A DNA stretch of 64,000 nucleotides, from contig NZ_CP121666.1 in the NCBI RefSeq assembly GCF_029714325.1, positions 4,960,001-5,024,000 of the forward strand, in the 5' to 3' direction. Both the position numbers and the translations under genes were made by a program. This document shows positions 6,672 to 23,233 of this stretch, in pieces. Position 1 is the stretch's first letter. Each line of letters opens with the position of its first letter. Origin of the DNA: Bradyrhizobium sp. CB1717. GTDB lineage: Bacteria > Pseudomonadota > Alphaproteobacteria > Rhizobiales > Xanthobacteraceae. The notes under the pieces are model-generated. The model saw nothing but the letters and a program-made list of their open reading frames with translations, was not told the DNA's origin and searched no databases.

Positions 6672-7298
6672 ATGAAGATTTCTGACCGCGACGTGCTGCT
6701 GGTGATCGACGTGCAGAACGACTTCTGCACCGGCGGGGCGCTGGCCGTGCCCGGCGGCGAGAAAGTCGTGCCCGCCGTCAATCGCATCGCCCAAAAATTC
6801 ACCAATGTGGTGCTGACCCAGGACTGGCATCCGGCTGATCACGTCTCCTTCGCGCCAAACCACGCGGGCAGGCAGCCGTTCCAGACCATCGAGCTGGACT
6901 ATGGCACCCAGGTGCTCTGGCCGTCGCATTGCGTGCAGGGCACCGCCGGCGCCGAATTCCACCGCGAGCTGGATGTCACCAGAGCGAGCCTGGTGGTGCG
7001 CAAGGGCTTTCGCCGCAGTATCGATTCCTATTCGGCGCTGTTCGAGAACGACCACAGGACGCCGACGGGCCTGCTCGGCTATTTGCGCGAGCGCGAGCTG
7101 AAGACCGTTTTCGTTGCGGGTTTAGCCCTGGATTTCTGTGTCCGTTTTTCGGCGGAGGATGCCCGCAAGGCCGGGTTCGAGGTCGCGGTGATCGAGGATG
7201 CCTGCCGCGGCATCGACCTCGACGGCTCCGTGGCGGCGGCCCATCGGAGTTTTGGCGAGCTCGGCATTTCCGTCATCAGCTTCGAGGCGTTCCTGTGA
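6672..7298 (+). CDS. pncA: Nicotinamidase (pyrazinamidase)
   Basis: A 208-residue isochorismatase-fold enzyme that hydrolyses nicotinamide to nicotinate and ammonia, a step of NAD salvage. The catalytic triad is D13 (VIDVQNDF), K111 (VVRKGF) and C156 (LDFCVRF). The metal ligands lie in DWHPADH. K111 and C156 have the same numbers as in the E. coli enzyme. The ATG at 6672 opens the conserved N-terminus; the longer frame upstream overlaps the glk promoter region. It is followed after 16 bp by the PhaC-like gene and then by nadE, which makes a coherent NAD neighbourhood. Confidence 0.95.
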   Translation: MKISDRDVLLVIDVQNDFCTGGALAVPGGEKVVPAVNRIAQKFTNVVLTQDWHPADHVSFAPNHAGRQPFQTIELDYGTQVLWPSHCVQGTAGAEFHRELDVTRASLVVRKGFRRSIDSYSALFENDHRTPTGLLGYLRERELKTVFVAGLALDFCVRFSAEDARKAGFEVAVIEDACRGIDLDGSVAAAHRSFGELGISVISFEAFL

Positions 7299-7314
7299 GG
7301 AGTGCGAGATAGAC

Positions 7315-8430
7315 GTGGCGCAGAAGACAGGCAAACAGCCGGGAGGACCGGATCACATCCCCGACGACCCGCTGCTGTGGCCGTTTGCAGCGGCGCGGCT
7401 CGCTATGGATGCCTGCTTCTGGTGGATGGAGCGCGGGCCGGCCGAGCCGGCCGACACCAGCCTGCCGTGGACGACGCCGAGCAGGGTCGCGCTGGAGCTT
7501 GCGACCATGCGCCTGCGCGATTGCACGACGGACCGGTCCGGCCAGTCGGCGCTGGTCTGCGCGCCCTATGCCTTGCATCGCGCCCTGATTGCGGACTTCG
7601 CGCCCGGGCACAGCGTGGTGCAGTCGCTGCAAAATGGCGGCATCGATCGGGTCTATCTCACCGACTGGCGGTCGGCGACGTCAGATATGCGCTATCTCTC
7701 GATCGACAGCTATCTTTCGGATCTCAACGTCGCCATCGACGAGATCGGTGCGCCGGTCGATCTCGTCGGGCTGTGCCAGGGTGGCTGGCTGTCGCTGCTC
7801 TATGCGGCGCGCTTTCCCGCCAAGGTGCGGCGGCTGGTCCTGGCGGGCGCCCCGGTCGACCTGTCGATCGACTCGGCAATGTCGCGGCTCGCCCGCAACG
7901 CGCCCGGTATGGTCTACGACCAGCTCGTCGCGCGTGGCGGTGGCAATGTCAGCGGCGAGGAGATGCTGCGCTTCTGGTCGAAAACGCCAAGTCGCGAGGA
8001 TATCGCAACCGCTTTGCAGAGGGAGCTCTCGGACGAGGAAGGCGCGGCACTGCTCGCGCGCTTCGACCAATGGAATGTGGAGCCTCTCGATCTGCCCGGT
8101 ACTTATTATCTGGAGATCGTCAACTGGATCTTCCGGGAGAACCGCATCGCCGGCGGCGACTTCGTCGCGCTTGGCCGAAAGGTTCGTCTCAAGGACGTCA
8201 AGGCGCCGATCTTCCTGCTGGCCGGGCTCGACGACGAGGTGGTGCCGGCGACGCAGGCGCTCGCCACGGCCCAGCTTGTCGGTACGCCGCCCGCCTTCAT
8301 CGCGGCGGCGTCCGAGCCGAGCAACCATCTCGGCCTGTTCATGGGTGCGCGGACCCACGCGCATGCCTGGCCCCGGATCGCGGAGTGGCTGCGGAACGAT
8401 CTGTCCGGCGTGCTCGCCCGCAGCGCCTGA
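7315..8430 (+). CDS. PhaC-like alpha/beta hydrolase (371 aa)
   Basis: The fold resembles the catalytic half of polyhydroxyalkanoate synthases. The nucleophile elbow is GLCQGGW with Cys at 154, where ordinary esterases have Ser. The acid is at D306/D307 (LAGLDDEVVP) and His at 338 (SNHLGLF). DWRSATSDMRYLSIDSY also matches the PhaC pattern. At 371 residues it lacks the N-terminal domain of true PhaC (~560-600 aa). The GTG start at 7315, with GAGGAGTGCGAG before it, lies 16 bp after pncA, so the two are probably co-transcribed. Annotate as a PhaC-like hydrolase; polymerase activity is unproven, and a hydrolase or acyltransferase role is equally possible. Confidence 0.75.
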   Translation: MAQKTGKQPGGPDHIPDDPLLWPFAAARLAMDACFWWMERGPAEPADTSLPWTTPSRVALELATMRLRDCTTDRSGQSALVCAPYALHRALIADFAPGHSVVQSLQNGGIDRVYLTDWRSATSDMRYLSIDSYLSDLNVAIDEIGAPVDLVGLCQGGWLSLLYAARFPAKVRRLVLAGAPVDLSIDSAMSRLARNAPGMVYDQLVARGGGNVSGEEMLRFWSKTPSREDIATALQRELSDEEGAALLARFDQWNVEPLDLPGTYYLEIVNWIFRENRIAGGDFVALGRKVRLKDVKAPIFLLAGLDDEVVPATQALATAQLVGTPPAFIAAASEPSNHLGLFMGARTHAHAWPRIAEWLRNDLSGVLARSA

Positions 8431-8570
8431 CCTCGCCAGGCGCCGGGCAGACCGACGCGCAATTCCGTTATGCATGATGGCCGATGGCCTGCACGGGGCG
8501 GGGTCCATGGGTTACATATGGATCCGGAGCTGACGGCTGCGGCCGGCCGGGAAGAGATTAAGGGTACTCG

Positions 8571-12329: not shown

Positions 12330-13967
12330 ATGAGCAAGTTCACCCGTCGCACCATCCTGAAGTCCGGCGGCGCTGCCGCGAGCACGCTTCTCCTGCCGCG
12401 CTTTGCGATCGGTCAGGCCGACAACCGTCCGTCGGTGACGATCGCCGTGCAGAAGGTGACCAATTCGAACGTGCTCGACGTGCTGCGCGAGCAGTCCAAT
12501 GTCGGCGAGCGCGTGTTCTTCTCCTCGATCTGGGAGGGCCTGATCTCCAAGAACTGGCGCGGCAGCCTAGAGGCCGTGCCGGGCCTCGCCACCGAGTGGC
12601 GCCGCATCGACGACCAGACCGTCGAGGTGAAGCTGCGCCAGGGCGTCAAGTTCCACAACGGCGACGAGCTGACGGCGGAAGACGTCGTCTTCACCTTCAG
12701 CCGCCAGCGCATGTTCGGCGAGACCGAGGCCAAGAGCCGCTCCACCATCCAGGCCTTCGAGAAGATCCCGACGCCACGGCCGGGCAAGGAGTTGCCGCCG
12801 GACGTGCCGGCCGTCGCGCGCCGCATCTGGCCGGACCTCGTGCGCGTCGATGCGGTCGACAAGTACACGGTGCGCTTCTACAACGCGACGCCTGATGTCA
12901 CCATCGAAGGCCGGCTGTCGCGCTACGGCTCCGACATTGCAAACCGCCGGGCCTGGGAAGAGTCTGCGAGCTATCTCGACTGGGCGCGCAAGCCGATCAC
13001 GACCGGACCCTACAAGGTGGTCGAGCTCAAGCCCGACGTGTCGCTGACGCTGGAAGCACACGACGAATATTGGGGCGGCCGCCCGCCGCTCAAGCGCATC
13101 CGCTTCCTCGAAGTCCCTGAAGTCGCGAGCCGCATCAACGGGCTGCTCTCGGGCGAATACCAGTTCGCCTGCGACATCCCGCCGGACCAGATCGCCGGCA
13201 TCGAGAAGAATGCCGCGTTCGAAGTGCAGGGCGGCACCATCCTCAATCACCGCCTGACCGTGTTCGACAAGAACCACGCCGTGCTCGCCAATCCGCTGGT
13301 GCGCCGCGCCTTCACCCATGCGATCGACCGCCAGGCGATCGTCGACAGCCTGTGGGCCGGCCGCACCCGCGTGCCGAAGGGCCTGCAGTGGGAGTTCTAC
13401 GGCGACATGTTCAACGCCGACTGGAGCGTGCCGGCTTACGATCCGAAGCTCGCGCAGGATCTGCTCAAGCAGGCCAATTACAAGGGCGATCCGATCCCGT
13501 ACCGGCTGCTCAACAACTACTACACCAACCAGGTCGCAACCGCGCAAATCCTGGTCGAGATGTGGAAGTCGGTCGGCCTCAACGTGCAGATCGAGACCAA
13601 GGAGAACTGGTCGCAGATCATGGAGCGGGCGCCGACCCGTGCGGTCCGCGACTGGTCGAACTCGGCCGCCTTCAACGATCCGGTCTCCTCGCTGGTCGCC
13701 CAGCACGGGCCGAACGGCCAGCAGCAGCAGATCGGCGAGTGGACCAATGCCGAGCTGAACACGCTCTCGGAATTCCTGGAGACGTCGACCGATCGCGCCG
13801 CGCGCAAGAAGGCGTTCCGCCGCATGCTGGAGATCGCCGAGCGCGAGGATCCCGCCTATACGGTGCTGCACCAGAACGCGACCTTCACGGCCAAGCCGAA
13901 ATCGATCAAGTGGAAAGCCTCGCCCGCCTTCGCGATGGATTTCCGCGCCGGCAATTTCGAGGCCTGA
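12330..13967 (+). CDS. ABC importer substrate-binding protein, family 5 (peptide/nickel type)
   Basis: A 545-residue periplasmic receptor of the DppA/OppA class. The N-terminus MSKFTRRTILKSGGAAASTL has a twin-arginine motif, so export is probably by Tat. The family signature is seen in VEVKLRQGVKFHNGDELTAEDVVFTFSR (residue ~100 on) and in VRRAFTHAIDRQAIVDSLW. The length is typical. It is followed by two ATPases and two permeases, a complete importer. The ligand could be an oligopeptide, an opine or a glycoside. The isomerase-like neighbour makes a sugar-containing ligand worth considering. Confidence 0.9.
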   Translation: MSKFTRRTILKSGGAAASTLLLPRFAIGQADNRPSVTIAVQKVTNSNVLDVLREQSNVGERVFFSSIWEGLISKNWRGSLEAVPGLATEWRRIDDQTVEVKLRQGVKFHNGDELTAEDVVFTFSRQRMFGETEAKSRSTIQAFEKIPTPRPGKELPPDVPAVARRIWPDLVRVDAVDKYTVRFYNATPDVTIEGRLSRYGSDIANRRAWEESASYLDWARKPITTGPYKVVELKPDVSLTLEAHDEYWGGRPPLKRIRFLEVPEVASRINGLLSGEYQFACDIPPDQIAGIEKNAAFEVQGGTILNHRLTVFDKNHAVLANPLVRRAFTHAIDRQAIVDSLWAGRTRVPKGLQWEFYGDMFNADWSVPAYDPKLAQDLLKQANYKGDPIPYRLLNNYYTNQVATAQILVEMWKSVGLNVQIETKENWSQIMERAPTRAVRDWSNSAAFNDPVSSLVAQHGPNGQQQQIGEWTNAELNTLSEFLETSTDRAARKKAFRRMLEIAEREDPAYTVLHQNATFTAKPKSIKWKASPAFAMDFRAGNFEA

Positions 13968-13969
13968 AG

Positions 13970-14953
13970 GTGTCGCCGCTGGTCAGCATCGCAGGCTTGA
14001 ACGTCGCTTTCAACGGCGTGCCGGTGCTGCGCGGCGTCGATCTCGCTCTCGGCAAGGGCGAGGCCCTCGGCCTCGTCGGCGAGTCCGGCTCCGGCAAGTC
14101 GGTGACCTGGCTCGCCGCACTCGGCCTGCTGCCGCGGCACGCGAAGATTTCGGGCTCAGTGCAGCTCGACGGACGTGAACTGCTGGGCGCGCCGGCCGCC
14201 GAGCTCGACCGCGTCAGGGGCGGGCGGGTTGCCATGATCTTCCAGGATCCGGCGAGCGCGCTCAACCCGGTGCTGACCATCCGCAAGCAGCTCTGCGAGG
14301 CGCTGGCACTGCATCGCGATCTCCAGGGCGGGACCGTGAAGGCCGAAGCGAAGCGGCTGCTCGATCTCGTCGGCATCCCCGATGCGGCGCGGCGGCTGTC
14401 GGCCTATCCGCACGAATTCTCCGGCGGCCAGGTCCAGCGCATCATGATCGCGATGGCGCTTGCGGGAAATCCGGACCTCCTGATCGCGGACGAGCCGACC
14501 ACCGCGCTCGATGCCACCATCCAGGCGCAGATCTTGGAGCTGCTCTCCAGCATCCGCCGCGAGATGAGCATGGCGATGGTGCTGATCAGCCACGATCTCG
14601 GCGTCGTCGCCGAGAATTGCGACCGCGTCGCGGTGATGTATGCCGGCCGCATCGTCGAGCAGGCGCCCAGCAACCAGCTCTTCGCCGATCCCGTCCACCC
14701 TTACGCGCAGGGCCTGATCGGCGCGCTGCCGCCGCTCGACGGACCGCGCCGCCGTCTCACCGCCATTCCCGGCACCGTGCCCGATCCCGCGCACATGCCG
14801 ACCGGTTGTGCCTTTGCGCCGCGCTGTACGCTGGCGACCCATCCGTGCGGTCTTGCGGCACCAACCCTCGCACCCATTGCCAATGACCGCACCGTCGCCT
14901 GCATCCGCGCCGAGGCCTCGCGCCGCGCACTGCTCGGGATCGCCGCCGAATGA
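13970..14953 (+). CDS. ABC importer ATP-binding protein, DppD/OppD-like
   Basis: The 327-residue ATPase starts at a GTG 2 bp after the binding-protein stop codon ([12 protein letters not shown]...). Walker A is GESGSGKS, the signature is FSGGQVQR, Walker B is LLIADEPT, and the switch His is in LISHDLG. The C-terminal CAFAPRC motif is the oligopeptide-transporter-specific tail (oligo_HPY), which carries cysteines for a possible Fe-S site. It pairs with the next ATPase to drive import at the inner membrane. Its stop overlaps the next start by 4 bases. Confidence 0.93.
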
Positions 14954-15936
14954 GCGCGCCGCTCGTCGAGGTCCGCGCGATCTCCCGCAGCTACAGCATG
15001 CGCTCCGGAATGTTCGGCCGAGCCACGGCCGTGCATGCCGTCGACGGCGTGTCGCTCACGATTCCCAAAGGTGAGACGCTGGGCCTCGTCGGCGAGTCCG
15101 GTTCGGGCAAATCCACCACCGGCCGCATCGTGCTCGGCCTCGAGCCCCCGGATCGCGGCGAGGTGCGGTTCGGCGGCAAGCCGATGGCCGCGCCGGGAAC
15201 GGCTGTGTGGCGCGCGCAGCGGGCACGGATGCAGATGATCTTCCAGGATCCGCTGGGGGCGCTGGACCGGCGCCTTCCGGTCGCCACACAGATCCGCGAG
15301 CCGCTCGACATCCACGGCCTCGGCACGCCCGCCGAGCGCGAGGAGCGTGTGCGCGAATTGCTGCGCGCAGTCGAGCTGATGCCGGCGCACGGCACCCGCT
15401 ATCCGGGCGCGCTCTCGGGCGGACAGCGCCAGCGCATCGTGCTGGCACGGGCGCTGGCGACGAAGCCGGATTTCCTGGTCTGCGACGAGCCGGTCAGCGC
15501 GCTCGACGTCTCGATCCAGGCGCAGGTGGTGAACCTGCTTTGCGATCTCCAGGCGCAGTTGTCGCTGACTTTGCTGTTCATCAGCCACGATCTGCGCGTT
15601 GTCCGGCAGATCAGTAACGTTGTCGCGGTGATGTATCTCGGCCGCATCGTCGAGGTCGGTAGCGCCGACGACCTGTTCGCGCGACCGGAGCATCCCTACA
15701 CACAGGCGCTGGTCTCGGCGTCGCCTGCGCCCGGCCGCCGCAGCGCCGGCCGCATCGTGCTGTCGGGCGATCCGCCGAACCCGGCGGCGCGTCCGCAAGG
15801 CTGCGCCTTCCATCCGCGCTGCCCACACGCCGTCGCGCGCTGTGCGAGCGAGGTGCCGGCGCTCTCGGCCGTCGGCAGTGACAGACAGGTCGCCTGCCAT
15901 CTCGTCACCGGCGCTCAAACGCGGGACGCGGCGTGA
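14950..15936 (+). CDS. ABC importer ATP-binding protein, DppF/OppF-like
   Basis: A 328-residue partner ATPase. Walker A is GESGSGKS, the signature is LSGGQRQR, Walker B is FLVCDEPV, and the H-loop is in FISHDLRV. The C-terminal CAFHPRC motif marks the oligo_HPY tail as in its partner. ATGA overlap with the preceding gene and overlap with the permease behind it show translational coupling through the operon. Confidence 0.93.
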   Translation: MSAPLVEVRAISRSYSMRSGMFGRATAVHAVDGVSLTIPKGETLGLVGESGSGKSTTGRIVLGLEPPDRGEVRFGGKPMAAPGTAVWRAQRARMQMIFQDPLGALDRRLPVATQIREPLDIHGLGTPAEREERVRELLRAVELMPAHGTRYPGALSGGQRQRIVLARALATKPDFLVCDEPVSALDVSIQAQVVNLLCDLQAQLSLTLLFISHDLRVVRQISNVVAVMYLGRIVEVGSADDLFARPEHPYTQALVSASPAPGRRSAGRIVLSGDPPNPAARPQGCAFHPRCPHAVARCASEVPALSAVGSDRQVACHLVTGAQTRDAA

Positions 15937-16865
15937 TGGGACGCTATTTCGCCATTCGCATCGGGCGCGCAGCTCTGACGATCGTGCTCGTCGTCACCTT
16001 TGCCTTCGTCGTGCTGCGGCTGTCGGGCGATCCTGCCCTGATGATTTTGGGACCGGAAGCACCGCCCGAGGTGATCGCCGCCTTCCGAAAAGCCTGGGGC
16101 CTCGATGATCCCATCTGGTTCCAGTACCTCGATTACTTCAGCGCCATCGCCAAAGGCGAGCTCGGCCGCTCCATGCGCGACGGGCGGCCCGCGATCGAGC
16201 TGGTGCTGGAGCGGATCCCGGCGACGCTGGCGCTGACGCTACCGGCCTTCTTCTTCAAGGTCGCGCTCGGCGTTCCCGCCGGCATCTACGCGGCGCTGCA
16301 TCGGGGCTCGGGAATCGATCGCGCGGTGATGATGACGGCGGTCGCCGGCTTCACCGTGCCGAGCTTCGTGCTGGCGCTGCTGCTCGTACTCGTCTTCGCC
16401 GTGCAGCTCGGCTGGCTGCCGTCGGGCGGACAGGACAGCTGGCGCCACGCCATTCTGCCGATCACAACGCTCAGCCTCGGCGGCGCCGCGGTGCTGGCGC
16501 GCTTCACCCGCAGCGCGATGCTGGAGGTGCTCGGCCAGCCCTATATCCGCACGGCCTCCGCCAAGGGCGTGCCGTGGCGCAAGGTGGTGACATCGCATGC
16601 GCTGCCGAACGCGGCGATCCCGACCGTGACCATTCTCGGCTTCATGGTGGGCACGCTGATCGCCGGCGCGGTCGTGGTCGAGAGCGTGTTTGCCTGGCCG
16701 GGAGTAGGGCGGCTTCTTGTCGTTGCGGTTGCCAATCGCGATCTCGCGGTCGTGCAATGCATCCTGCTGCTGGTCGCGATGACCATGGTCACGTCCAATT
16801 TGGTCGTCGACTTCCTGTACGGCTTCCTCGATCCGCGGCTGCGCGCGAAAGGAGCCCATGCATGA
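15936..16865 (+). CDS. ABC importer permease, DppB-like
   Basis: A 309-residue inner-membrane protein with six helices. The ATG at 15936 shares its A with the upstream stop codon; a GTG at 15933 is an alternative. The start GRYFAIRIGRAALTIVLVV has the usual first helix of DppB. Conserved late segments are TRSAMLEVLGQPYIRTASAKG (EAA-like loop) and VVVESVFAWPGVGRLL. It forms the channel with the DppC-like protein that follows. Confidence 0.93.
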   Translation: MGRYFAIRIGRAALTIVLVVTFAFVVLRLSGDPALMILGPEAPPEVIAAFRKAWGLDDPIWFQYLDYFSAIAKGELGRSMRDGRPAIELVLERIPATLALTLPAFFFKVALGVPAGIYAALHRGSGIDRAVMMTAVAGFTVPSFVLALLLVLVFAVQLGWLPSGGQDSWRHAILPITTLSLGGAAVLARFTRSAMLEVLGQPYIRTASAKGVPWRKVVTSHALPNAAIPTVTILGFMVGTLIAGAVVVESVFAWPGVGRLLVVAVANRDLAVVQCILLLVAMTMVTSNLVVDFLYGFLDPRLRAKGAHA

Positions 16866-17722
16866 CCGACGCCACGTTGAAGGATACGGGCGTCCGCCGT
16901 CGCATCAGCCTGCCGGCGATCCCGGTCTCGGTGGCGCTGGCGATCGGCTGGATCGTCGCGATGCTGGTGATCGCAGCCTTCGCCGAGAAGATCGCCCCTT
17001 ACGGTTTCACCCAGCTCGATTTGCGCAACCGCCTCGCGGCACCCGGCAATGTCGCGCACTGGCTCGGCACGGACGAGCTCGGCCGCGATGTGCTGTCGCG
17101 GCTGCTCGTGTCGATCCGCATCTCGCTGCTGATCGCCTTCGGCGCCACCGCAATCTCGGCCATCGTCGGCACCACGCTCGGCTTCCTGGCCGCGCATTTC
17201 CGGGGGGCTGTCGAGCAGCTCGTGCTGATGCTGACCGACTTCCAGGCCAGCATGCCCTTCCTGATCATGGCACTCGCCGTGCTCGCCTTCTTCGGCAATT
17301 CGCTGCCGCTGCTGGTCGGGTTGATGGGCCTGTTCGGCTGGGAGCGCTATGCCCGCATCGCGCGCGGCCTTGCCATCTCCGCCAATGCGCAGGGCTACGC
17401 CGCCGCGGTCCGCCAGTTAGGCGCAACGCCGTCGCGGATTTACCTGCGGCATATCCTGCCCAACATCGCCTCGACGCTGATCGTCTCGACCACGCTGGTC
17501 TTCCCCGAGGTGATCCTGATGGAGTCGGGCCTGTCCTTCCTCGGCCTCGGCGTACAGCCGCCGATGACCAGCCTCGGCAACATGGTCGGCTATGGCCGCG
17601 AGTACCTGACCCGGGCACCCTGGATCATGCTGGCACCGGCGACCACCATCGTCGTGACCACGCTCGCGGTCTCGGTCATCGGCGACTGGCTGCGCGACCG
17701 GCTGGATCCGACGCTGCAATAG
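16862..17722 (+). CDS. ABC importer permease, DppC-like
   Basis: The 286-residue second permease begins MTDATLKDTGVRRR, with ATGA overlap onto the DppB-like gene. Characteristic segments are HWLGTDELGRDVLSRLL before the second helix and the EAA-type loop YAAAVRQLGATPSRIYLRHI. It ends LRDRLDPTLQ, the usual DppC C-terminus. It is the last gene of the operon and converges on the TOMM dehydrogenase gene after 25 bp. Confidence 0.93.
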   Translation: MTDATLKDTGVRRRISLPAIPVSVALAIGWIVAMLVIAAFAEKIAPYGFTQLDLRNRLAAPGNVAHWLGTDELGRDVLSRLLVSIRISLLIAFGATAISAIVGTTLGFLAAHFRGAVEQLVLMLTDFQASMPFLIMALAVLAFFGNSLPLLVGLMGLFGWERYARIARGLAISANAQGYAAAVRQLGATPSRIYLRHILPNIASTLIVSTTLVFPEVILMESGLSFLGLGVQPPMTSLGNMVGYGREYLTRAPWIMLAPATTIVVTTLAVSVIGDWLRDRLDPTLQ

Positions 17723-17747: not shown

Positions 17748-19199
17748 CTAGCCTTGGACCTCCGGCTTCCTGCCGCGTCCGAGCGCGAATTGACCGACCG
17801 GGCCCTCGATATGGAATTCCAACTCCGTCATTTTCGCGAACAGATCGATGTTGGTGCTGCCAATGGCGCAGCCGCCGAGGCCCATATCGGTCGCCGCCAG
17901 GTAAAGCGTCTGAATCAGGCTGCCGACATCCTTCAGGATCAACGAATATGCGATTGAGCTGTATTTCCAGGAGACCCGCCCAAAACGCGCCGCGATCGTG
18001 ATGAGGATTTGTGGTTGACCCGGCGCGTCCATGGCGAACTGGGCAGCCGCCAAATGCGCCTGGAGTTGTTGGGGGGAGGCGCCGATCGCGACTAGCGCGT
18101 GGCTCCCTGCATCATAGTGGTAGAGTCCGCGCGCAAGCCCGTCGCAGTTCGCGACGGTAAGGTACAATTCCAGCTCGTACGCGCTGCCCGCCGACGGATA
18201 AGGCCTTGTGCTGTAGCTGACGTCGGGACCGCCCTCGAAATACGGCTCGCTCTTCCATTCGGACACGACGCGCGCGGTGGTGTCGAGAAACTGTGCGAGT
18301 TCGCCGAGCGTGACCGGATGCTTGTCGTCGAAATCCCGTGTTGAATGGCGTTCGCGCAACAGCTTCGGGAAGTGGGAGTTTGGCTCCGCGGAGGAGAATT
18401 TGCGCAGGTCAATCTTGCTGCCGGCCCAGGGCGGACGTACCGCCGGCGACGGCGGAACGACGCCGGCATAGGTGAAGGCGGCGCCGACCGGGTTGGCTTG
18501 CCGACCCTCCGTGCTTCGCGTGTGAAACACCAGATCATGGAAATCCCAGAGAACGAGATTGCCGTCGCCTTCATTCACTCGCAGGCCGTCGCCGCCTTTC
18601 GCATCGAGCTTGAGCAGGATCTGGCTGTCCAGCAGCAGCTCGAGCAAAAGGAGGTTGAGTGACTTCGGGTCGAGCTTGCCGATCTTCTGAGGCTGCGACA
18701 GCGCAGCAAGGGTGGCGGCGATGGCGGGATCGCCAATCCGGAACAGCGCGGCGGCGCGTGGCGATTCCAGCACCAACTCGTTGCCGCGCCGGCGCAGAAA
18801 GGCAAAGCGCGATAGCACAACGGTGTCACGACTGCCCAGCTTCGCGCGCCGCGGCCAGTAGTCGGGGACCTGGGGCTCGACGACCACGAAGTCCTGCGTG
18901 CTACGCGAAGAGGAGAGGCGGTATTCCAGAAGCCCTTGCCGGGCCAGGCGATGCACCAGTGCGTCGATTTCCCTGGCGAGGATGCTCTTGCCTGCAAACG
19001 AAGCGAGCGGAAGACCGGTGCTCAGATGTCGTGCGCAGTCCATCGCGGCCGCGCTGAATTGTCCGAGGTTGACGGAATAGTCGCCGAGAGAGGCGGCGAT
19101 GTTTCCGTCCGGCTGCATCTGGAGGGAAAAGCGATGGCTCAATCGGGCGGCAATCTCCGGCGCGATCTTCCTGGTCGGCTTTTTCCGGGGAGCACGCAC
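17748..19199 (-). CDS. SagB-type dehydrogenase of a TOMM cluster
   Basis: This 483-residue protein ends in a nitroreductase-fold, FMN-dependent domain (~275-475) with RERHSTRDF, PSAGSAYELELYL and ATDMGLGGCAIGSTN. This is the SagB/ThcOx pattern that oxidises azolines to aromatic azoles on ribosomal peptides. The N-terminal ~260 residues form a SagB-associated helical region. It is the last gene of a three-gene minus-strand set (precursor, cyclodehydratase, dehydrogenase) and follows the cyclodehydratase by 13 bp. Product oxidation, hence thiazole rather than thiazoline rings, is inferred from family knowledge. Confidence 0.88.
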   Translation of the reverse strand: MRAPRKKPTRKIAPEIAARLSHRFSLQMQPDGNIAASLGDYSVNLGQFSAAAMDCARHLSTGLPLASFAGKSILAREIDALVHRLARQGLLEYRLSSSRSTQDFVVVEPQVPDYWPRRAKLGSRDTVVLSRFAFLRRRGNELVLESPRAAALFRIGDPAIAATLAALSQPQKIGKLDPKSLNLLLLELLLDSQILLKLDAKGGDGLRVNEGDGNLVLWDFHDLVFHTRSTEGRQANPVGAAFTYAGVVPPSPAVRPPWAGSKIDLRKFSSAEPNSHFPKLLRERHSTRDFDDKHPVTLGELAQFLDTTARVVSEWKSEPYFEGGPDVSYSTRPYPSAGSAYELELYLTVANCDGLARGLYHYDAGSHALVAIGASPQQLQAHLAAAQFAMDAPGQPQILITIAARFGRVSWKYSSIAYSLILKDVGSLIQTLYLAATDMGLGGCAIGSTNIDLFAKMTELEFHIEGPVGQFALGRGRKPEVQG

Positions 19200-19212
19200 G
19201 ACGAGCAGGCCT

Positions 19213-21459
19213 TCAGGTGTGTGGAAGGAATGAAGTCAGATCGCTTTCCAGCCGCGGCCGGTCCAACAATCCGAGCCTCACCGGCACGTCGTATAGGCGG
19301 CCCGGTGCGAAGCGGCGATAAAAATGACGCAAGCCCGGAACGAGCACTCGGACGACCGGAACCTCGACGTCGGGACGTGTCTGGTCGAGGACGAGGAAAT
19401 CGTAGCCCGCACGGGCGGCGATCTCGACGCAGGCGATGGCCTGGTCACGCGTATTGTCGTGAAGCTCGAGGCTTGGCGCCGGGGGGACGATCGGGCGATC
19501 GCTCGGTGTCAGGAACGGGTAGTCTTCCAGGCGCAGCGGGGTAACACCGTCGAGGGTCGGCTTCTCGCCGCTCGCACCGCCCATCATGCTGACGGACATG
19601 AATTGGGTCAGCTCGGTGAGGGAGCGCAGCAGGGCTATACGGCGGTCGAAATGCGCGCCGGACCCGAACTCGATATGCTCGTGTCCATCCTGCATCCAGT
19701 GCATGATTGCCACGTAAGTCGGAATGCCGAGGTCGGTGGTGACATCGAGCACCCACAGCTTGCGCCCGGCTTCCGCAAATTGAGTCCGGAGATCCCGGAC
19801 ATAGAAATCGTCGAACTGCTCGAGGTCGACCTCGGCGCGCTGCACCCGGTTGTACCACCAGATCGCGTAGGCATCGCGCTCGATCAGTTCGAGGAAGCCC
19901 TGGACAATCGCTTCGTCGCGGGTGTTGCCGGCCGCGCAGCCGTTGGAATCCGTATGGAAGCCGCCATAAAAGAAGTACAGGAGCCCCGTCGGCAGATATT
20001 TGAAGCGTTTGTCGCGCAACGATGAGACGGGCGACCACTCGGTCCTCGTCGAAGGATCGAACGGCTCGGGCACCGGATGGGGATCGTCCGGTTGCTGGAG
20101 AAACCTGTTCTTGAACTGCGTTTCGCTGAAGAGCTGGACATCGTTGGGAAGAAGCGCGTCGCCAGGCGCGAAATCGGCAAATCGACGGGTCGTCCTGATC
20201 TCATCGCCCTGGAAAATGCCCGAATAGCGTTCGATCGATTCCATCAGCGCGCTGGCTTCGCCCTGCTCGGCGGTCGAGCCCTTGCCAAAACTGCCGCCGC
20301 TCAATCCGGACCTGAGCTGGTCGATGCTGTGGGCGGGCGCGGAGAAATTATGCTGCGCGAAGTAGTTGGTATTCATCGGCAGGTCGACGTCGATTCGTTC
20401 GAGCCTGGTCACCACCCCTGTCAGGGGGCTCACATGTTTGCGGAAGCGCGACACCGTCGACCGCGACGTCACGGTGCGATATCCCCCGCTGGTCATGACG
20501 AGCCTCTTGCCCTCGGCAATTTCGACCAGGGCCGGAGATCGGCGCGGGTTGTTCAGCTTCCTGCTGCCGCAGGTCGGACATTGTGGACGTCGCGTCACGT
20601 AGTGCTTGGCGATGGCGGCGCCGGTGAGGTCGAAACTTGCGATGTGATTGCATAAATCGGTACGAAAATCCGATGCAATTGCCTTGGCGATTTCGACGGC
20701 CGCAAAATGGATTCCAGTCTGACCGACGCTTTCTCTGACGAGCGGCGATATGGCAACCGCATGCGCCGTTCCCCGGTCAAGAAACCCCTTGATCTCCCGG
20801 TTGCGGATCATGCGATCGAACAGGCAGGTCCAGCAGGCGCTCTCGCCCGGTTTGAACACGGGACCGACCAGCGGAAACGCGCCGGATGGCTGTACCAGCA
20901 GCCAGGGCGTCTTGCCGGCCGCGCGTTCCTGGTTCAGTTCAGCAAGTCGCCGGTCGAGATAGTCGTTCGCCAGCGTGATCGTGAACTTCGGCGCTCGCTT
21001 GGCGATTTGAACACCGAGCTTGCTCAACGCCGCGGTCAGCTCCCTGGCGCCTTTGACGTCAATCGACTCAATCCGGACGGGGCAATTAAGAAGATTTTGT
21101 TCGGCGATCTCCAGGGGGATGCCGAGGCTCGCCAGGAAACCGCCGACGGCGTCGTCGAATGCTTTCGGGTTCCGCGCAACGACATATCGGCGATCGAGGA
21201 GCCGCTTGATTGCTTCCTCGATCTTGTTGGCCGGAAAGTGCTTCGAAAGCTGGCCAATGATCTCCGGCCAAGCCTTGCCATGTTTTCCGATCGCGGTGGC
21301 CAAGGCGCAGTAGAGCTCGCCGTGCAGGAAGAACTTGCGGTCCTCGGAATAGAGGCAAACCGCATCGGGGGGCAGTACGTAAGCGGTGAAGTTCGGTGCA
21401 AATCGGAGAATGTCTTTGCGGGTCTGCCGCGCAACGCGGGTCTTGCCAGTTGCAGTCAT
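19213..21459 (-). CDS. Fused E1-like/YcaO cyclodehydratase (TOMM heterocyclase)
   Basis: A 748-residue fusion. The first ~340 residues resemble the leader-binding, E1-like partner (SagC/TOMM leader-binding protein) with a zinc tetrad C209xxC212 (ACWTC) and C294xxC297 (QCPTC). The rest is a YcaO domain with ATP/Mg motifs EASALMESIER (E401, E407, E410) and EAIVQGFLELIER (E516, Q520, E524, E527). Such proteins phosphorylate backbone amides to close Cys, Ser or Thr side chains into azolines. The C-terminus reads LTSFLPHT and lacks the PxPxP tail common in azoline-forming YcaO proteins. Gene order places it between precursor and dehydrogenase, with a hairpin ahead of it. Confidence 0.9.
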   Translation of the reverse strand: MTATGKTRVARQTRKDILRFAPNFTAYVLPPDAVCLYSEDRKFFLHGELYCALATAIGKHGKAWPEIIGQLSKHFPANKIEEAIKRLLDRRYVVARNPKAFDDAVGGFLASLGIPLEIAEQNLLNCPVRIESIDVKGARELTAALSKLGVQIAKRAPKFTITLANDYLDRRLAELNQERAAGKTPWLLVQPSGAFPLVGPVFKPGESACWTCLFDRMIRNREIKGFLDRGTAHAVAISPLVRESVGQTGIHFAAVEIAKAIASDFRTDLCNHIASFDLTGAAIAKHYVTRRPQCPTCGSRKLNNPRRSPALVEIAEGKRLVMTSGGYRTVTSRSTVSRFRKHVSPLTGVVTRLERIDVDLPMNTNYFAQHNFSAPAHSIDQLRSGLSGGSFGKGSTAEQGEASALMESIERYSGIFQGDEIRTTRRFADFAPGDALLPNDVQLFSETQFKNRFLQQPDDPHPVPEPFDPSTRTEWSPVSSLRDKRFKYLPTGLLYFFYGGFHTDSNGCAAGNTRDEAIVQGFLELIERDAYAIWWYNRVQRAEVDLEQFDDFYVRDLRTQFAEAGRKLWVLDVTTDLGIPTYVAIMHWMQDGHEHIEFGSGAHFDRRIALLRSLTELTQFMSVSMMGGASGEKPTLDGVTPLRLEDYPFLTPSDRPIVPPAPSLELHDNTRDQAIACVEIAARAGYDFLVLDQTRPDVEVPVVRVLVPGLRHFYRRFAPGRLYDVPVRLGLLDRPRLESDLTSFLPHT

Positions 21460-21611
21460 TGAGTCAGCACGCTGATCCTGTTTCCGTCACGCTAGATCCC
21501 CGGCGCAAGATGGATCGTCACGACCGCGCGCCGGCATGTTCTCAGAGAATTGAAACGAATTCAGCTGTCACCCGCAAGCCGCCGATGCGAGCGTCGTAGC
21601 GAAATCAAGCA

Positions 21612-21643
21612 ATTGGCCGGACCCTTTCTTGAGGCCGGCCAAT
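21612..21643 (-). terminator. Hairpin between precursor and cyclodehydratase genes
   Basis: Perfect 9-bp stem ATTGGCCGG/CCGGCCAAT with a 14-base loop, 43 bp downstream of the precursor stop codon. A leaky terminator here would make much more precursor than enzyme message, which is usual in ribosomal-peptide operons. No long T-run follows, so read-through is expected. Confidence 0.6.
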
Positions 21644-21686
21644 GACCTATCAACCCGTGAATTCGACATTCGGAACGCGCCGGGCT

Positions 21687-22124
21687 CTAGCACCAGCGGC
21701 AGCGGCCCCACGATGCGCAGCAACCCGCGCATGATACGGCGCATCCCACCACACCAACGCCACAGCCAACGGCACAACCCGCACATCGGCAACCGACGCC
21801 ACATCGGCAACCACGGCAACCCCGACAGCCTCTGCAGCCGCGGCAACCGCCGCATCCGCGCCACGCCAACTGCACGCGGCTACCGGCGTTTTCCTTGTCG
21901 AAGAGATGGAAGGTGGCGAGGCTGACGTCAGCCATTTCCTCTTCATCGAGCGTGATTGCTTGACCGACTCCAAGGTGGGGCAATTGTTGTACGTCGGGTG
22001 TCGGCACGGCGGACGCCGATGCGCCTCCCGCCAGCGAGAACGTCAACCCTGCGGCTCCGAACGCCGGCACGGCGACTTTGGTTACTCGCTTCTTCCCTTT
22101 AGAGGTCTTCTTCGCCTGCCGCAT
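21687..22124 (-). CDS. Cys-rich TOMM precursor peptide (145 aa)
   Basis: The start at 22124 has GGAGGG seven bases upstream, the clearest ribosome binding site in the area. Residues 1-89 form the leader: a Lys/Arg-rich start, a hydrophobic stretch (~17-34) ending in a signal-like ASASA, then an acidic segment (TLDEEEMADVSLATF, FDKEN) suited to enzyme recognition. Residues 90-145 are the core: 17 Cys, 8 Arg, Gly/Ala/Val spacers, two Ser and no acidic residue, beginning with the unit RGC four times (after GCGGC). The core can be read as a substrate for Cys-to-thiazole conversion by the two downstream enzymes. The pattern resembles heterocycloanthracin-type cores but is longer and Arg-rich. A metal-binding protein is the alternative; the enzyme neighbours make it less likely. 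Confidence 0.85.
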   Translation of the reverse strand: MRQAKKTSKGKKRVTKVAVPAFGAAGLTFSLAGGASASAVPTPDVQQLPHLGVGQAITLDEEEMADVSLATFHLFDKENAGSRVQLAWRGCGGCRGCRGCRGCRGCRCGVGCRCAGCAVGCGVGVVGCAVSCAGCCASWGRCRWC

Positions 22125-22363
22125 GGTCGACCCTCCGAGCATTGCAAGAAGCATCCCAGCCGCGGTAAGTCTACGCTCAGGAAATAACGCGAGCAACAAT
22201 TACGCGCACAAAAGCGCGGCGCTGCACGTTCGGATGTATTCATCTTCATGAACGGCAATCAGCACAGCCAGTTGACACAGCGCGTCAACGATCCACGCTC
22301 TCGGCGCGCGTGCAGCTTGCTGCAGTGCCGCAAGCGCATCGAATCTTGAACGGAGAGTTCGGG

Positions 22364-23233
22364 GTGGCAGATCGATCAGGGCGTTTCGCTTGGTATGAAC
22401 TCCTGACCACGGATGTCGCAGCGGCGGGCGCATTTTATCGCAAGGCCGTCGGCTGGGGCGTGAAGGATGAATCGACCCCGGATCTACCTTACATGGTGCT
22501 TCGTAGCGGCGGCGCTCCGCTGGGCGGACTTATGGATATCCCGGAAGAGGGGCGGAGATTGGGGGCGACGCCGCGGTGGATGGGATACGTCGCCGTCGAC
22601 GACCTGGACGCGACCGCCGCGCAGATCAGGCGTCTTGGAGGCACGATCCTTGTGCCGCCGACCGACACCAATATTGGCCGCATAGCAGTCGTTGCCGATC
22701 CGCAGGAGGCGACGTTCGGGCTGATCAAAGAACCGACATATGGCCGACGGAAACCGGGCCGGCCGGACGAGCCGGGGCGTGTCGGCTGGCATGAGTTACT
22801 GGCTACCGACCGGACCGTGATCTTCGATTTCTACAGAGAACTATTCGGTTGGCAGAAGACCGACGCTCAAAGCGAACCAGCGGCCTGGTATCAATTGTTT
22901 TCGGCGGGTGGGCAGACGATCGGCGGCATGCTCACGAAACTTCCGAGCGTAACGCAGCCGAGCTGGCTGCATTACTTCAATGTCGACGACATCGGTGCTG
23001 CCATGAAACATGTGAACGCTGGCGGCGGCCGGATTCTCCAGGGGCCGATCGAATTGCCTGATGGCTGCTGGATCGCACGATGTGTCGATCCCCAGGGCGC
23101 CTTGTTTGCATTGCAGGGGGCCCGGGGTCCGACCAGCATTGAGCCATCCTCGGCTTCGGAAATCGGCTGGTCCGCCAAGTGGGGTGGCATTGCCTCCCAG
23201 GGGAGAATTGTGCTGCCCAAGCCGAAGCGCTAG
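22364..23233 (+). CDS. Two-domain VOC (glyoxalase-fold) protein
   Basis: A 289-residue protein made of two vicinal-oxygen-chelate modules: FAWYELLTTDVAAAGAFYRKAVGW (~8-31) and GWHELLATDRTVIFDFYRELFGW (~145-167). Each is followed by the usual GG and VDD segments. The GTG at 22364 with GGAGAG upstream is preferred to an earlier in-frame GTG. Such tandem proteins include glyoxalases, dioxygenases and antibiotic-binding resistance proteins. Being divergent from the TOMM precursor it could be a self-protection gene, but this is speculation; it may equally be unrelated. Confidence 0.8.
   Translation: MADRSGRFAWYELLTTDVAAAGAFYRKAVGWGVKDESTPDLPYMVLRSGGAPLGGLMDIPEEGRRLGATPRWMGYVAVDDLDATAAQIRRLGGTILVPPTDTNIGRIAVVADPQEATFGLIKEPTYGRRKPGRPDEPGRVGWHELLATDRTVIFDFYRELFGWQKTDAQSEPAAWYQLFSAGGQTIGGMLTKLPSVTQPSWLHYFNVDDIGAAMKHVNAGGGRILQGPIELPDGCWIARCVDPQGALFALQGARGPTSIEPSSASEIGWSAKWGGIASQGRIVLPKPKR

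Follow-up and report, generated by a model that had tools for sequence, protein, structure and literature searches.

The 64,000-nt stretch of Bradyrhizobium sp. CB1717 DNA analysed here, which I will call the window, carries a probable RiPP cassette in which a Cys-rich precursor, a fused YcaO cyclodehydratase and a SagB-type oxidase are joined by a fourth gene, encoding a tandem-VOC protein. The fourth gene is nearly invariant from locus to locus and occurs in two placements. No printed account of it was found. Together with precursor genes dispersed away from the cassette, it is the new part of the system.

Organization of the cassette

The genes and their parts are given below in window coordinates, with the basis for each in brackets.

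22124..21687, minus strand: precursor gene (145-aa ORF)
22008..22124, minus strand: signal-peptide-like N-terminus of the precursor, residues 1-39 (alignment and hydropathy)
21888..21959, minus strand: acidic conserved leader segment, residues 56-79, likely recognition element (36-row alignment)
21690..21857, minus strand: Cys/Arg/Gly core, residues 90-145 (residue counts and alignment)
21690-21722, minus strand: conserved C-terminal CCASWGRCRWC of the core (alignment)
21459..19213, minus strand: fused cyclodehydratase of 748 aa, with leader-binding N-terminus, E1-like part and YcaO (profile matches, LynD alignment)
19199..17748, minus strand: SagB/ThcOx-type azoline oxidase of 483 aa (TIGR03605, PF22767)
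22364..23233, plus strand: tandem-VOC protein gene, two glyoxalase/bleomycin-resistance modules and a C-terminal tail (PF00903, two stretches)
22125..22363, no strand: divergent upstream region common to the precursor and VOC genes (53 divergent loci)

An earlier note on this DNA had described a unit of three genes. The open reading frames of precursor, YcaO fusion and SagB do follow one another on a single strand, as it had stated, but the extent was drawn too narrowly, since the divergent tandem-VOC gene ending at 23233 also belongs. A ribosome-binding-like GGAGGG (22131-22136) stands 6 nt ahead of the precursor ATG. The start codon of the VOC gene is uncertain, either GTG at 22310 or GTG at 22364, and the queries used in searches began at 22334. 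In the 53 divergent loci (window included), the tblastn match starts of precursor and VOC are separated by 197-418 bp, and 59 of 263 alignment columns of the shared upstream region are invariant among 17 close loci. This region presumably functions as a promoter. On the other side of the cassette, genes for an oligopeptide/dipeptide-type ABC transporter (13352-17722) occupy the opposite strand and end next to SagB. Frames from that region recur near the cassette in just 14-19 of 50 loci, and it is therefore not part of the unit.

The modification enzymes

The YcaO fusion matches TIGR03882 with 147 bits (cut-off 36.9) and PF02624 with 301 bits, and with 210 bits falls just under the cut-off of 219 for TIGR03604. 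Its residues 17-741 align with LynD (E=1.1e-134), and TruD aligns likewise over nearly the full length, MusD in part. The oxidase scores 190 bits with TIGR03605, above the cut-off, and 107 bits with PF22767 (ThcOx domain), and it matches CyaGox and SagB-type chains with E about 2e-51. The YcaO Glu motifs and NGxAAG, as well as the Lys-Tyr of the oxidase, are intact in all 63 sequences (62 loci plus the window), and each of the four CxxC cysteines is kept in 62 of the 63; I take these motifs to have their usual functional roles.

The profile matches (TIGR03882, PF02624, TIGR03605, ThcOx), the alignment with LynD and TruD, and the conserved motifs together uphold the earlier assignment to the TOMM/LAP class. 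The features expected of that class are seen: a precursor with leader and Cys-rich core beside the enzymes, a YcaO protein with an E1-like/leader-binding part, and a SagB-type FMN dehydrogenase. The case for a RiPP of a known kind is strong, and thiazol(in)e or azol(in)e chemistry on the core is, judging from sequence, highly probable.

The precursor

Counted from G90, the core has 56 residues, with 17 Cys, 8 Arg, 2 Ser and no acidic residue, exactly the earlier counts; it also has 16 Gly, and no D, E, K or H. The unit RGC does occur four times in a row, at residues 95, 98, 101 and 104, and once more at 89. As to the leader, the acidic segment that had been described is present, but a signal-peptide-like start had been missed: residues 1-39 are basic, then hydrophobic, then ASASA, and hydropathy, which peaks at 1.35 in a 15-residue stretch starting at residue 19, combines with the alignment to suggest this reading. 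All rows of the 36-row alignment have in common a start that is basic and then hydrophobic, the acidic segment, and a core ending in a CCxxWGxCR motif, and the leader columns L59, E61-E63, D66-F72 and E78 are invariant or nearly so. The acidic segment may resemble the leaders of cyanobactins; a search of PDB with the precursor profile gave nothing meaningful (best E 1.4).

The precursor finds no family match at E<=1 in Pfam or NCBIfam. Of 4632 candidates in one search with it, 4091 proteins were homologous at E<=0.01, a number that suggests a family of thiazole-type peptides that is very large and uncharacterised. Bradyrhizobium itself is a major genus of soil and root nodules. Among the best 120 of the 4091, residues were counted in those 114 that have an identifiable leader motif and a terminal Cys. 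Their cores span 37-81 residues. Each has 11-20 Cys and 5-10 Arg; Ser/Thr number 0-4, acidic residues and His 0-1 each, and Lys is absent.

In leader and in core alike, dN is smaller than dS in 16 of 16 orthologue pairs (in the core, dN is 0-0.054 and dS 0.047-0.570), and ten of these pairs differ additionally by 2-8 gapped core codons. Leader and core are under purifying selection, and the precursors are a real, selected gene family. The core is repetitive and of low complexity, and GC-rich DNA has many shadow frames, both of which one would expect if the Cys-rich frame were a chance or non-coding reading of repetitive DNA. The probability of that is nonetheless close to nil, in view of the homologues, which run to thousands and keep leader and end conserved, the uniform result from the orthologue pairs, and the perfect co-occurrence with the enzymes. 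These same observations rule out the precursor as an artefact.

Distribution

The precursor is found in 85 of 195 Bradyrhizobium genomes. YcaO matches occur in 88, comprising the 85 precursor carriers, all at 67% identity or more, and three others: G185 (81% complete), with a fragment, and G062 and G095, with relatives of 37% identity. Cys-rich homologues without YcaO, which the earlier note had named as evidence that would count against it, were thus seen in 0 of the 85. Its mining target, the three-gene order, was recovered as well, SagB following YcaO with order and strand alike in all 62 loci examined. These loci come from 49 of the 84 Bradyrhizobium genomes that bear a precursor besides the window's own, 11 genomes of the family outside the genus, and 2 distant genomes of the order. 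The 11 were taken from 18 extra-generic family genomes with YcaO identity of at least 61%, the 7 left out including several contig-end fragments.

At the level of the family, YcaO is present in 23 of 198 genomes and 9 of 47 genera. The precursor profile matches 7 of 249 genomes of the order, 3 of them Bradyrhizobium; two are distant members (G614 and G590) with precursor beside YcaO, and two are weak matches (G386 and G522, E about 4e-4) in genomes without YcaO at E<=1e-60. At the level of the class, the precursor appears in 1 of 210 genomes, the window's own, and in a sample of the phylum YcaO appears in 5 of 219, four from the order and one a relative of 35% identity. Named carriers among the best 80 of 100 relatives include B. 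stylosanthis, B. betae, B. elkanii and B. neotropicale. The precursor orthologue of G188 is 90% identical and lies in the same kind of cassette (L043).

YcaO fusions of only 31-36% identity were noted in G173, G062, G095, G206 and G363 (L080, L081, L082, L177 and L180), some with a relative of SagB. They are not part of the 62-locus count (L080-L082, from Bradyrhizobium, have 34-36% YcaO identity; L177 and L180 are family loci). There is no precursor or VOC match at any of the five, and they are likely to be different TOMM clusters.

The tandem-VOC gene

Clustering of neighbouring frames brought out one further gene, the divergent tandem VOC, in all 50 loci, the window's among them. By genome search, it is present in exactly the 85 precursor-bearing Bradyrhizobium genomes, the other 110 having no match at E<=1e-20. 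Of the 62 cassettes, 61 are accompanied by it, and in every such case it occupies the opposite strand. In 52 of them it lies upstream of the precursor; these are Bradyrhizobium loci and those of three further genera (L174-L176). In the remaining nine it is downstream of SagB, namely L164-L171 (eight loci, four other genera) and L173. The exception is L172, from G614, where precursor, YcaO and SagB occur without a VOC gene; G614 is also absent from the order-wide VOC matches. That one VOC-less cassette of the 62 is also without the CCxSWGxCRxC end. The C-terminal motif is missing from the precursor at one other locus, L168, where the VOC gene is present, and so a link between VOC and motif rests on the single case of L172. 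Directly upstream of the L172 precursor is a frame of 566 aa (6808-8508), carbamoyltransferase-like by eye.

Order-wide, a VOC match at E<=1e-20 is present in 62 of 249 genomes, of which four are cassette carriers. Since tandem VOCs of 30-49% identity are widespread there without the cassette, the cassette VOC, which carries an extra C-terminal tail, looks like a specialised branch. Both of its modules have Trp and Gly/Ala at the alignment positions that would correspond to the His and Glu of metal-dependent VOC enzymes. Loss of the ligands would fit binding better than metal catalysis. The net charge of the cassette VOC has a median of -5 over 62 rows, as compared to -12 for an ordinary paralogue in G189, and no VOC that is more acidic was seen among the 62. 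Cassette VOCs are thus not unusually acidic, and no charge match to a cationic product is seen. The AlphaFold model is poor (mean pLDDT 49.7). The best sequence match in PDB is 3oxh (Rv0577; E=2e-30), and resemblance to drug-binding VOCs is at the level of the fold family.

Precursors away from the cassette

None of the 85 genomes with a precursor lacks YcaO, but unlinked extra copies of the precursor are common in them: at least 22 of the 85 have such copies outside the cassette. In many strains, a single pair of enzymes probably acts on several precursors encoded at scattered sites, and the unlinked precursors may amount to a natural library read by that pair.

Of 46 unlinked loci examined, one has a VOC neighbour (G053, L090/L179). 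Its VOC is an open frame of 294 aa, divergent as in the cassette, with a nearby stop that falls just before the ATG, and no YcaO or SagB match occurs within the 5-kb locus. The VOC can therefore follow the precursor without the enzymes. It does not follow each precursor, since the other 45 have no VOC within about 2 kb.

Two kinds of unlinked precursor depart from the usual core. At ten loci (L084-L088, L134, L137, L141, L153, L155) there is a short-core paralogue with few Cys and a Pro/Gln/Lys-rich end, situated within a scattered stretch of DNA, about 0.4-0.7 kb long, that is 89-99% identical between genomes and present in three copies in G053; by eye, no terminal repeats of the unit were seen. 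At L129, L130 and L136, the Cys-rich core ends in a Gly/Ser/Gln tail in place of the usual motif, and L129 and L130, both from G027, encode the same protein.

Proposed function

From the observed gene content, order, conservation and co-occurrence, I infer a path for the chemistry, recognition, export and VOC role. The fused cyclodehydratase would bind the acidic leader segment and close core cysteines to thiazolines, some or all of which the SagB-type oxidase would convert to thiazoles. The product would be an Arg/Gly-thiazol(in)e peptide, long and cationic, that bears the conserved CCxSWGxCRxC end. Among the frames common to the loci there is no conserved exporter or protease next to the cassette, and the signal-like N-terminus of the precursor suggests that the peptide may leave by general export machinery. 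The tandem-VOC protein would bind the product without metal catalysis, its likeliest role being to protect the producer, as bleomycin-binding VOC proteins do. The explanation in its entirety, a four-gene RiPP cassette with a product-binding VOC, has in my estimate an even chance of being right; self-protection as the role of the VOC has somewhat less. The near-invariant VOC partner offers an immediate way into the question of how a producer may withstand its own peptide.

The same thiazol(in)e chemistry could be accompanied by a VOC protein that acts as a tailoring enzyme or a chaperone of maturation. VOC proteins are often enzymes, this one is conserved as strictly as the modification enzymes, and in nine loci it lies downstream of SagB. 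Against such a role are the apparent absence of classical metal ligands from both modules, the placement on the opposite strand in every one of the 61 loci, and the precursor-VOC pair that occurs without enzymes; I regard it as rather unlikely, though worth keeping in mind. A more distant reading makes the mature peptide a metal chelator or carrier, its Cys only partly ring-closed, with the VOC as partner or carrier, and no antibiotic at all. It draws on the composition of the counted cores, rich in Cys, with few Ser/Thr and nearly devoid of His and acidic residues, and on the failure to find an immunity gene of classical type beside the cassette. However, the YcaO and SagB motifs are intact throughout, Arg without Lys and the variation of the core look like a natural product, and no metal-homeostasis gene is among the frames common to most loci, all of which make this reading improbable.

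One may go further and propose, with rather less confidence, that the VOC protein is a dedicated binder and self-protection factor for a family of giant Arg-rich polythiazole peptides, perhaps gripping CCxSWGxCRxC, and that a single enzyme pair modifies dispersed, fast-changing precursors of the same genome.

Relation to known systems

The earlier note recognized similar leaders in alphaproteobacteria only vaguely and knew of no characterised product. No such product was found in the literature on Bradyrhizobium YcaO, cyclodehydratase, TOMM or SagB, so far as its text was open to search (PMC10128002 included), but the family had in fact been mentioned in print. A single sentence of Haft 2009 (PMC2674419) cites Lee et al. 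2008 as having proposed a B. japonicum TOMM precursor that contains Cys-Arg-Gly repeats, and this precursor very likely belongs to the same family. Haft 2009 and Cox 2015 also describe heterocycloanthracins, whose core is a Cys-X-X repeat with indels of repeat units and whose precursors may lie far from their enzymes. The precursors here are alike in these respects; they differ in having an Arg-rich core, another leader, a main precursor linked to the cassette, a leader-binding part fused to YcaO, and a VOC gene. Membership in the heterocycloanthracins was rejected, no NCBIfam entry matching the precursor at E<=1, with TIGR03601 assumed to be in the release. The main text of Cox 2015 (PMC4603692), to the extent available, makes no mention of rhizobia, glyoxalase, bleomycin, signal peptide or immunity, and no link of VOC or glyoxalase with YcaO or RiPPs was found in a literature consisting mostly of papers outside subscription.

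The architecture of a fused leader-binding/E1-like/YcaO protein plus a ThcOx-SagB oxidase is that of LynD/TruD and CyaGox/ThcOx. The substrate differs from that of the cyanobactin enzymes, having a long core of Arg and Cys and a beginning that looks like a signal peptide. No PatA/PatG-type protease or macrocyclase was seen among the frames shared by most loci: only precursor, YcaO, SagB and VOC are common to all 50 loci, shadow frames aside. Cyanobactin membership was therefore rejected, despite the LynD/TruD-type heterocyclase. As to the VOC protein, Rv0577 (3oxh) is likewise a tandem VOC of two modules, apparently without classical metal ligands; the cassette VOC differs from it in its specific C-terminal tail, and the nearest relatives seen are the general tandem VOCs of the order.
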